Assembly (NCBI GenBank): GCA_017882645.1
Contig: JADGPC010000103.1
Span: 1 to 36,650 of the forward strand
Source: Streptosporangiales bacterium
GTDB lineage: Bacteria > Actinomycetota > Actinomycetes > Streptosporangiales > Streptosporangiaceae
Length of the DNA stretch: 36,650 nucleotides
Reading direction: 5' to 3'
The notes under the pieces are model-generated. The model saw only the letters and a list, made by a program, of their open reading frames with translations, was not told the DNA's origin and searched no databases. Within the stretch, counting starts at the first letter, position 1. Each line of letters begins with the position of its first letter. A program made the position numbers and the translations under genes. Of this stretch, positions 1,765 to 6,084 are shown one piece after another.

Positions 1765-1804
1765 GCAACGGCCCCCGCCGCGTTCTCACGGCGGGGGCCG
1801 TTGC
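1765..1804. terminator. Hairpin: 16-bp perfect arms, 8-nt loop
   Basis: GCAACGGCCCCCGCCG - cgttctca - CGGCGGGGGCCGTTGC, just 3' of the minus-strand secreted-protein gene. Confidence 0.75.
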
Positions 1805-1827: not shown

Positions 1828-3726
1828 CTAGCTCTTGGGCTGGGTGAGCGCCGGGCATCCGCCGGAGATCTCCGGGTTCGCCTTCACGGCCGACGTGACC
1901 GTTCCGCCGAACCGGGCCACATCCGGCGTGCCGTACTGAGCGGCCCGGCCGAAGTTACGGGTGGTAACACCGGAGATGACATTTCCGAAGTTCCACACGC
2001 AGGCGCCGGTCGGGAACAGCCCGGGCCCGACGTTCTGGCCCTTCTTGTTGGTCAGCGTCCAGAACGGATAGAACTTCGCGCCGACCGGCGGGGTCACGCA
2101 CAGGTTCCCGTTGAAGACGTTGCACAAGAACGCCGATCCGGGCGCGTCGGTCTCAAACTGGATCTTCGGGTACGTATGACCGGACTGATCGAACGGGCCG
2201 GCGTACCTGAACGACGTCGGCACGTTCGACGACCCGTTCGGCCACGTGTGCGGCTGGTAGGACATGCCGTCGAAGTCCAGGTCACCGTTCTGGAACCGGT
2301 TGTCGCCGCACAGGTTGACCGGCGAGGTCTCCCTGATGGCCTTGCCGCCGACGATCACCGTCCTAGTGCCCTGCGGCAGGCAGATGCCGTCCGCGTACTC
2401 GCACAGCTGGCCGCTGGCGAAGTTATTGCTCGGGCAGGCGATCGGGCCGGTCGTGCCTTCGGTGGTGGCACCCTTGCAGACCCCGGTGCGCGGGTTGCAG
2501 CCGCCCTCGCCCTTGGCCGGACGGCGATGAGAGCGGCCTTCGTTGCCGCCGACGCAGGTGTCCGAGGTGCTCTTGTCGACGATCAGGCCAGGATCGTTGA
2601 TCGGGTCCTTGTTGGCCAGCGAGGCGCAGACCTCGGAGTGCCCGATCTCCTGCTGCATCAGCACGCCGCCTTCGAGCGCGGCCCACGGAACCTGGTTCTG
2701 CTGCGCAGCGGTGCTGTACTCGGCGTGGAAGGTGTGTGGCGTGCCAGCGCACGTCTTGTAGTTGGTGTTCATGAAGCCATTGCCGGCGCTGGCGGTCATC
2801 CGGCCGGTCTGCCCGGTCGTTAGGTCGCTGACGACCGTAGTGAATCCGGTCGGCGGATCGCTGATCGCTACCTTGATCACGTCACCGGAATTCATGAACA
2901 GCGTGCGCCTGCCGGGCTGGAAGGTGCTCGCGTCTGCCGTCTGCGGCCCAGGCGGACCGCCCGGCTTCCCGTTGGTCGTCAGGTAGGCGAAGTTAACCGG
3001 CTCTTCGCAGTTCGGGTTCAGGTTGACGAAGTTGAACTCCGACTCGAGGCTGTCGATGTTGATCGCCGTGCACCACTTGGTCGCGTTGCAGCTGGCGCTG
3101 TCCAGAAACGGCGCGAAGCCCGGCGGGTAGAACTGAAGCTCCATGAAGGCCGAGCCCGCGTCGGTCGGCAGGCCGGAGCCCGTGTTCGTGTCGCTGTCCG
3201 GCGTGCAGGGATTCTGCGGGTACGAGCCCGGGTCGCAGATGGGCAGGCCGAACCACGGCGCGACGCTCAGCTCCGCGTATTTGACGACCTTGCCGTTATT
3301 GGTCGGCGGCTTGGCCGGGTCCTTCGGCATCTTCATGTAGTACGTCATCGTGTTGCCGGAGCCGGCCGCCGAGGAGATGAACTTCACGCTCGGCTCGTCG
3401 TGGCCGACGTAGTGACGGTTGTCCAAGAAACGGCCGCGATCGTTATAGCTGCTCGCCGGCGCGGCCCACTTCCCGTTCAGCTTCTTCGGGCCGCGCGGAT
3501 CGACACAGGTCTCCCGGTGAGCGAACGCGACCGGCTTGTACTTCGGGCTCCAGCCGTTGCAGTCGACTTCGCTCACTTTCTTGGGAGCGACGGCATGCGG
3601 TGCCCCGGCGGTCACGCGCGCAGTAGCTGGCGCCGCTGCGGCGACGGACAGGCTTGCCAGGGCGAGCACGGGCGCCGCAACCAGCGCCCAGGTCGAACGT
3701 CTCTTGAAGGACCAGCGAAATTGCAC
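1828..3726 (-). CDS. Secreted protein of unknown function, 632 aa, with signal peptide
   Basis: GTG start with GAGAGGAAAT upstream; N-terminal RRSTWALVAAPVLALASLSVAAAAPATA signal sequence; Cys- and Pro/Gly-rich extracellular composition; full-length ORF. Confidence 0.8.
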   Translation of the reverse strand: MQFRWSFKRRSTWALVAAPVLALASLSVAAAAPATARVTAGAPHAVAPKKVSEVDCNGWSPKYKPVAFAHRETCVDPRGPKKLNGKWAAPASSYNDRGRFLDNRHYVGHDEPSVKFISSAAGSGNTMTYYMKMPKDPAKPPTNNGKVVKYAELSVAPWFGLPICDPGSYPQNPCTPDSDTNTGSGLPTDAGSAFMELQFYPPGFAPFLDSASCNATKWCTAINIDSLESEFNFVNLNPNCEEPVNFAYLTTNGKPGGPPGPQTADASTFQPGRRTLFMNSGDVIKVAISDPPTGFTTVVSDLTTGQTGRMTASAGNGFMNTNYKTCAGTPHTFHAEYSTAAQQNQVPWAALEGGVLMQQEIGHSEVCASLANKDPINDPGLIVDKSTSDTCVGGNEGRSHRRPAKGEGGCNPRTGVCKGATTEGTTGPIACPSNNFASGQLCEYADGICLPQGTRTVIVGGKAIRETSPVNLCGDNRFQNGDLDFDGMSYQPHTWPNGSSNVPTSFRYAGPFDQSGHTYPKIQFETDAPGSAFLCNVFNGNLCVTPPVGAKFYPFWTLTNKKGQNVGPGLFPTGACVWNFGNVISGVTTRNFGRAAQYGTPDVARFGGTVTSAVKANPEISGGCPALTQPKS

Positions 3727-3862: not shown

Positions 3863-4783
3863 TTACCGGCCGGGCGCCAGCGCGTCGAGCAAGCCGCCGG
3901 CCCGGTCGGCGGCCGCGGCCGGATCGGCGTCGGGCGAGCCGACCTGCGGATCCCAGTTGAGGTCATGGAAAACCTCCGTCACGCCGTGGTCGGCGAGCCC
4001 GCCGACGTCCGCCCGGATCTGGTCGTGGCTGCCGGACAGGAGCAGCCGGCGCCCGCTGGCATCGCTGGCCGGCTCGCCGGCCCGGACCACGCCGCGGCAG
4101 ATGATCCGCAGCGCGGCGGGATCACGGCCCGCGGCGGCTGCCGCCTCGCGCACGATCGCGATGCTCTCGCCGATCTTCGACAGGTCGGCCCGGCTTGACG
4201 TCACCCAGCCGTCGGCGATCCGGCCGACCCGGCGCAGCGCCACGGGCGCGGCGCCGCCGAGCAGGATCGGCGGGCCGCCCGGCTGGACCGGTCGCGGCAG
4301 CACCGTTCCGCGCGGCACGGCGTAGAACTCGCCGCTGAACTCGGCCGGCTGGTCGCCCCAGATCGTGCGGAGCACCCGGACATACTCGGCGGTCCTGGCC
4401 CCGCGGCGCTCCATCGACGCGCCGGTCATGGTGAATTCCTCGGGCATCCAGCCGAGCCCGAGTCCGAGATCGAGCCGGCCGGAGGACAGCACGTCGACAC
4501 TGGCGGCCTGCTTGGCGAGGTAGCCGGGGGAGACGTAAGGGGCGTTGATGACGGCGACGCCCAGCCTGATGCTGGTCGTGACCGCGGCGGCGTAGGCCAG
4601 CGCCGCGACCGGGTCGAGCACGCTGTGGTAGACGGGGTCCATGGCCGCGCCCTCGGGAATGATCAGTCGCTGGAACGTCCACAGCGAGGCATAACCGGCC
4701 TGCTCGGCGCGGACCGCGAACTGAGAGATGTTCTGCGGGGTGGCCCACGCCCCCGACACCGGCAAGCCGAATCCGATCTTCAT
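3863..4783 (-). CDS. LLM-class (luciferase-like) F420-dependent oxidoreductase
   Basis: MKIGFGLPVSGAWATPQNISQFAVRAEQAGYASLWTFQRL...LGLGLGWMPEEF...PILLGG; luciferase-like monooxygenase family signature. Confidence 0.85.
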   Translation of the reverse strand: MKIGFGLPVSGAWATPQNISQFAVRAEQAGYASLWTFQRLIIPEGAAMDPVYHSVLDPVAALAYAAAVTTSIRLGVAVINAPYVSPGYLAKQAASVDVLSSGRLDLGLGLGWMPEEFTMTGASMERRGARTAEYVRVLRTIWGDQPAEFSGEFYAVPRGTVLPRPVQPGGPPILLGGAAPVALRRVGRIADGWVTSSRADLSKIGESIAIVREAAAAAGRDPAALRIICRGVVRAGEPASDASGRRLLLSGSHDQIRADVGGLADHGVTEVFHDLNWDPQVGSPDADPAAAADRAGGLLDALAPGR

Positions 4784-4829
4784 TGCCCATACCTTAGCGG
4801 CGCCCCGCGCCGGGCCGGAGTAGCGGCCC

Positions 4830-4865
4830 GAGCCGGACGAGCCGGACGAGCCGGACGAGCCGGAC
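4830..4865. repeat. Four tandem copies of the 9-mer GAGCCGGAC
   Basis: Direct reading, between the LLM gene and the DAAO gene. Confidence 0.95.
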
Positions 4866-4872
4866 AGCAGAT

Positions 4873-4901
4873 GGGTCCCTGCCGCGTCGCGGCAGGGACC
4901 C
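4873..4901. terminator. Hairpin: 14-bp perfect arms
   Basis: GGGTCCCTGCCGCG-t-CGCGGCAGGGACCC, 3' of the minus-strand DAAO gene. Confidence 0.75.
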
Positions 4902-4932: not shown

Positions 4933-6084
4933 TCACTTCGGTTCGGTCAGCGGCGGCCACTGGCCGCAGACCTCAGGATTGGCTCCCACGGTCGAGGTCG
5001 CCGTACCGCCGTACCTGGCGAAGTCCGCCACGCCGTACTCCCCCTGGCCGGTGACTTCCGCCAGGACGCCGCGAGCGCAGCCCCACGACAGCGTGACCCC
5101 GGCCCCGCCGTGCCCGTAGTTGTGCACCAGCTGACGCCCGCCCGGCAGGGTCTGCGCTTCCAGCCGGACCTGGGGCCGAACCGGCCGCAGGCCGACCCGG
5201 TGCGCGAGTACAGGCGCGCCGGCCAGCCGCGGCTCCACGGCGGCACAGCTGGCCAGGATCCGCGCGGCCGTAGCGGGGTCGGGCCGCAGGCTCGCCTCTC
5301 CGCGCTCGTGCGTACCGCCAAGGACGACGGTCGCGCCGTGCGGGAAGATATAGCTGACCTGGTCAGGATCGGCGCCCTCGCCGACGAAGAACTCGGTCAG
5401 CCCCGGGTTGGCCGCGATCACGACCTGCCCTCGCACCGCGGTGAGCGCCGGGTCGGGGACCAGCTCGCGCGCTCCGATCCCGGTGCAGTTCACGATGACC
5501 GGCGCGGCGGAGCGGTCCAGCGCCTCGGCGAGGTCGCGCAGCGGCTGGCCCAGGTGGAACTGGCCGCCCTCGCCGAGCACGAGGTCCATCAGGTAGTCCA
5601 GGTAGGCAGGCATGGCGACCACGGGCGCGGTGTACCGCCAGCCTGACGTGTAGCCGCCTGGCAGGTCAGCCGGATCACAGCGGATCAGGCCGCCCGCATC
5701 GCGGGCGAACGACGGCGGGTCCGGCCCGGCCATTCCAGGCGAGGCCACCAGACCGCGGAGTTCGCTGACGCCCGCCGCCGACTCGGCGCACAGGTCACGG
5801 AACCGGCGCAGGGTCACCTGCGCCCAGTGGTGCACTCGCTGGTCGGCTCCGACGAGGTGGGCGCCCCAGAGCGCTCCGGCCACCGCCGACGTCGTGCGCT
5901 GCGGCGGGTCCGCGGCATACACGGTCACGCTCAGCCCGGCCTCGAGCAGGACCAGCGCCGTGCTGAGGCCGGAGACGCCTGCCCCGATGACGAAGACGTC
6001 GGGGCTGTCCGCTGGCACCTTCGCAACGTATCTGATCGGGCTGCCGCGCGAATCGGCCGATAGCCACCGACCGCCGGCCGACAT
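4933..6084 (-). CDS. D-amino-acid oxidase-like FAD oxidoreductase with an unusual C-terminal extension
   Basis: VFVIGAGVSGLSTALVLLEAGLSVTVYA (FAD-binding GxGxxG), TTSAVAGALWGAH, IVNCTGIGARELVPD, VRGQVV, LVHNYGHGGAGVTLSWGCA (DAAO C-terminal signature). Confidence 0.9.
   Translation of the reverse strand: MSAGGRWLSADSRGSPIRYVAKVPADSPDVFVIGAGVSGLSTALVLLEAGLSVTVYAADPPQRTTSAVAGALWGAHLVGADQRVHHWAQVTLRRFRDLCAESAAGVSELRGLVASPGMAGPDPPSFARDAGGLIRCDPADLPGGYTSGWRYTAPVVAMPAYLDYLMDLVLGEGGQFHLGQPLRDLAEALDRSAAPVIVNCTGIGARELVPDPALTAVRGQVVIAANPGLTEFFVGEGADPDQVSYIFPHGATVVLGGTHERGEASLRPDPATAARILASCAAVEPRLAGAPVLAHRVGLRPVRPQVRLEAQTLPGGRQLVHNYGHGGAGVTLSWGCARGVLAEVTGQGEYGVADFARYGGTATSTVGANPEVCGQWPPLTEPK

Follow-up and report, generated by a model that had tools for sequence, protein, structure and literature searches.

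Why does a D-amino-acid oxidase (DAAO) of an actinomycete end in the same residues as a secreted protein encoded two genes downstream? The question was raised by the window, the whole stretch of 36,650 nucleotides analyzed in this study, which is contig C300 of a draft genome of 4.36 Mb in 536 contigs (78% complete). The DAAO open reading frame (383 aa) occupies positions 4933-6084, and the gene encoding the secreted Cys-rich protein (632 aa) occupies positions 1828-3726, both on the minus strand. The original prediction explained the common ending either as a portable C-terminal tag or domain, or as the product of a fusion between the DAAO and the 3′ end of a secreted-protein paralogue that has since been lost. 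Our results point to the second explanation: the tail on the DAAO is very probably a non-functional fusion scar left by the 3′ end of a secreted-family gene. A literature search yielded nothing specific.

The last 36 residues of the two proteins were identical at 21 positions in an ungapped alignment, compared with a mean of 3.0 and a maximum of 12 identities in 200,000 residue shuffles. When the tail was used as a tblastn query, the other copy was retrieved with an E-value of about 1e-10. Retrieval of one tail by an HMM of the other had been named beforehand as a check, and a profile of 39 positions, for which 11 secreted-family C-termini but not the DAAO tail were used, retrieved the DAAO tail (E = 1.6e-11, 47 bits), confirming that the two proteins share a C-terminal segment. 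The 36-codon tail, GEYGVADFARYGGTATSTVGANPEVCGQWPPLTEPK, lies at 4936..5043 on the minus strand, and its equivalent in the secreted protein lies at 1831..1941 on the same strand. At the DNA level, the two segments were 70% identical, with a dS of about 0.9 over a 22-codon core. The end of the secreted-protein gene was 68% and 77% identical to those of two other species of the genus, G004 and G002, respectively; the DAAO tail was no closer to its neighbor's end than the neighbor is to the ends found in other species. Because this divergence equals that between species, a recent copy of the neighbor's 3′ end was ruled out as the source of the tail.

The secreted family to which the tail belongs was present in 18 of the 150 related genomes searched, with several paralogous branches per genome; G033 has two copies. 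The member in the window had no significant match in Pfam or NCBIfam, and a profile search with this protein found nothing. In a fold search of the PDB, no match was significant (best E 2e-3), the weak ones being to beta-sandwich, lectin, alginate-lyase, and neprosin folds. Members of the closest clade end in the pattern GxDAQYGxPDxARYGGTxxSxVxANPExxxGC, whose first G and subsequent Y, G, D, G, T, S, N, P, and C are invariant, and more distant members have a different C-terminal end. The DAAO tail is this C-terminal segment, carried by a protein that, in contrast to the members of the secreted family, has neither a signal peptide nor the other approximately 595 residues. The tail keeps eight of the nine invariant positions covered, and most of its changes fall outside the invariant sites. 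The dN/dS between the tail and its neighbor, estimated from only 22 codons, was about 0.28, similar to the values for several between-species pairs of secreted-protein genes. This pattern of divergence fits that of the end of a working paralogue that was later fused. The invariant Cys of the family is replaced by Trp in the DAAO tail (TGC to TGG), a loss that would not be surprising after the segment had become part of a cytoplasmic protein.

The DAAO body is encoded at 5044..6084 on the minus strand (start codon as given by the ORF finder) and ends in GHGGAGVTLSWGCARGVLAEVTGQ. It matched the Pfam family DAO (PF01266) with an E-value of 6.7e-38 over profile positions 1-348 of 353, and the solved D-aspartate oxidase 6rkf was matched at 9e-41 over residues 26-338. 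Both the GxGxxG FAD motif and the C-terminal NYGHGG..WG motif are present, and the body was predicted by AlphaFold with pLDDT values mostly above 88. Compared with D-amino-acid and D-aspartate oxidases (PF01266; PDB 6rkf, 2du8), the segment at about residues 26-341 corresponds to the domain over its entire length, with the HNYGHGGAGVTLSWG motif at the C-terminal side, but it is followed by about 36 residues that were found in no other DAAO examined. Both DNA and protein alignments of DAAO 3′ ends placed the fusion junction at 5035..5058 on the minus strand, where the likeness to relatives fades within approximately the last two codons of the relatives' reading frame; the window has EVTGQ|GEYG where G002 and G003 have QVTRLLG-stop and EAARLHG-stop, respectively. 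The tail therefore starts just past the normal DAAO end, as predicted. No stop codon occurs in the assembly between body and tail, and our own reading of the bases showed no stop in the other two frames at the junction either, so that a sequencing error hiding a stop codon was rejected.

The distribution of the tail was then determined with the tail profile, as the original prediction had advised. Among 343 genomes of the bacterial family, there were 15 clear matches (the next match had an E-value of 0.015), consisting of 13 secreted-family C-termini, one stranded tail in G039, and the DAAO of the window. The same 15 matches were obtained from 347 genomes of the order, and no further genome with the tail was found among 395 genomes sampled from the class; these three sets overlap. 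The window DAAO was thus the only unrelated carrier in these sets. Weak matches within the source genome itself, on contigs C202, C330, and C417 (E 0.2-1.2; internal stops in two of them), were attributed to chance because they were absent from the profile results at E-values up to 0.1. None of the 26 other DAAOs that were aligned, including four of the same genus, carried the tail. The DAAOs of G004, G006, and G031 have extra C-terminal residues of their own that are unrelated to it; that of G004 (locus L067, G004:C91, around 5500-5571) is a Pro/Gly/Arg-rich extension. As the G004 extension illustrates, the DAAO end may tolerate additions.

Comparison of the locus with its relatives revealed that a gene is missing at the site of the junction. 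In G003 and G004, the genes are arranged as sir2, DAAO, an oppositely oriented DinB/TIGR03083-like gene (identified by inspection), a luciferase-like gene, and the secreted-protein gene, and G001 and G002 agree with this arrangement over the part that their contigs cover. The DinB-like gene lies between the DAAO and luciferase-like genes in G003, G004, and G001, and in G002 the two are separated by an equally large gap. At this site the window has no DinB-like gene, and the order of the sir2, DAAO, luciferase-like, and secreted-protein genes is kept; the best DinB-like match elsewhere in the source genome was 50% identical and lay in another context. The conserved neighbor, a luciferase-like (Bac_luciferase) flavin monooxygenase (PF00296, 9.1e-58), is encoded at 3863..4783 on the minus strand, and only 149 bases, containing a hairpin and a 9-bp repeat, separate the DAAO stop codon from its start. 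The part of this interval next to the luciferase-like gene (4784..4872, minus strand) is a short spacer that stands where the relatives have the DinB-like gene of about 0.8 kb. It contains a perfect 9-bp tandem repeat, CGAGCCGGA (4829-4865, 4.1 copies), and a TAAGGT box located 8-13 bases before the luciferase-like gene; a similar box was seen by inspection in several relatives. In G001 (locus L068, G001:C512, 5720-7416), about 1.7 kb of extra genes, comprising an apparent PIN-type toxin/antitoxin pair (by inspection) and a membrane protein, lies between the DAAO and DinB-like genes. Judging from G001, the 3′ flank of the DAAO gene looks prone to insertion and deletion.

Strong hairpins had been predicted closely after both genes that carry the shared ending, and they were found within about 25-30 bases of both stop codons. 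The fused gene is followed by a perfect G+C-rich hairpin with a 13-bp stem (4873..4901, minus strand; -37.4 kcal/mol, z -4.8), and the secreted-protein gene is followed by a stronger one (1766..1804, minus strand; -58.0 kcal/mol, z -9.0). Since there is no T-run in either, neither hairpin was called by a strict intrinsic-terminator pattern. The hairpin at 4873..4901 is probably a terminator, and it may have come along with the tail.

Gene-fusion scars can arise by deletion between adjacent genes on the same strand. Such a scar is recognized by a tail that is homologous to the 3′ end of another family and absent from the orthologues of its carrier, and by the loss of a gene at the junction relative to sister species; both were observed here, the lost gene being the DinB-like gene. 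We propose that an extra copy of the secreted-protein gene would once have stood between the DAAO and luciferase-like genes. A single deletion would then have reached from the DAAO stop codon to a point close to the 3′ end of the extra copy, taking the 5′ part of this copy together with the convergent DinB-like gene and joining the last 36 codons of the copy in frame to an otherwise normal DAAO gene. The DAAO would now end at the stop codon (4933-4935, minus strand) and the hairpin of the extra copy, and its tail would be a floppy, functionless extension. In common with fusion scars made by deletion, the locus shows the loss of the upstream stop codon, an in-frame join, and the absence of an intervening gene; it differs from them in that little of the downstream gene is left, and this short piece probably has no function. 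This particular route is considered less certain than the scar itself, although it is somewhat favored. The intermediate is inferred, since no genome has a secreted-protein copy between the DAAO and luciferase-like genes; tblastn searches of the DAAO loci fetched from the relatives gave no such copy. The complete second copy at the DAAO site could have been confined to the lineage of the window. In keeping with such a history, the family is duplicated in G033, its 3′ end is found stranded in G039, and the DAAO 3′ flank looks unstable in G001.

Alternatively, the 3′ end alone, 36 codons with the hairpin, might have been copied into the 3′ flank of the DAAO gene, in which case a complete second gene would never have existed at the site. 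A parallel case lends some weight to this alternative. In G039 (locus L082, G039:C56, 8650-8763), a tail-only copy lies about 90 bases after the genome's own secreted-protein gene and its hairpins. This stranded copy ends in the same way as the complete gene, with 19 identical bases across the stop codon (GTTCAGCATCTAGCAACCG), and its 5′ border falls at the same protein position (DA|EYG) as the DAAO junction. From G039, it is clear that the 3′ ends of secreted-family genes do become stranded. However, the tail in the window is as diverged from its neighbor as the neighbor is from the genes of other species, its conserved positions are spared, and the loss of the DinB-like gene requires a deletion in any case. 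We therefore consider copying of the 3′ end rather unlikely. The common border in the two cases may be a coincidence; that the 3′ ends of the secreted family act as a recurring small module, always bounded on the 5′ side at DA|EYG and copied next to or onto other genes, has only a very slight chance of being correct.

An assembly chimera was also considered, given that the sequence comes from a metagenome-assembled draft in 536 contigs with 78% completeness, and that a second assembly of the species was sought among the genome contigs and none was found. Against a chimeric join, the gene order on both sides of the junction matches that of the relatives, the only other copy of the tail in the contig differs from it (70% nucleotide identity), and no long shared word that might mislead an assembler was seen at the junction. 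An artificial join is thus quite improbable.

The other explanation in the original prediction, that the DAAO acquired a portable tag or domain with a function of its own in targeting, binding, or stability, was not supported. The open frame, the conserved residues, and the occurrence of the same ending on two proteins of one locus would suit such a tag, but a third unrelated carrier was found in none of the family, order, and class genome sets, DAAOs of the same genus lack the segment, and its invariant Cys has been lost. The structure prediction that had been recommended also counts against a tag. In the AlphaFold model of the secreted protein, the segment had pLDDT values of about 68-89 and consisted of short helices and strands integrated in the larger fold, whereas on the DAAO it was predicted to be disordered, with pLDDT values of 30-40 and no alignment depth. 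The low confidence on the DAAO is due in part to the empty alignment, as no other DAAO has the tail. With this qualification, the models support the view that the segment belongs to the fold of the secreted protein and is disordered when attached to the DAAO. A portable tag is accordingly regarded as highly improbable.

The origin of the tail as a fusion scar therefore agrees with the prediction of a fusion to the 3′ end of a lost paralogue, in view of the gene loss at the site, the junction at the DAAO stop codon, the hairpin, and the stranded tail in G039. A function of the tail has a slight chance, given that its frame remains open and its residues are well conserved. With a full-length DAO domain and no signal peptide detected by inspection, the DAAO should still be a working cytoplasmic flavoenzyme, its activity being predicted. 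Because the secreted protein relies on its N-terminus for export and the DAAO lacks a signal peptide, the tail would not be expected to shift the location of the enzyme.

The family that gave rise to the tail is itself uncharacterized. The case cautions against taking a common C-terminus in a single draft genome as a tag. If read as we propose, the locus would capture clearly how the ending of one gene can pass to another through a deletion.
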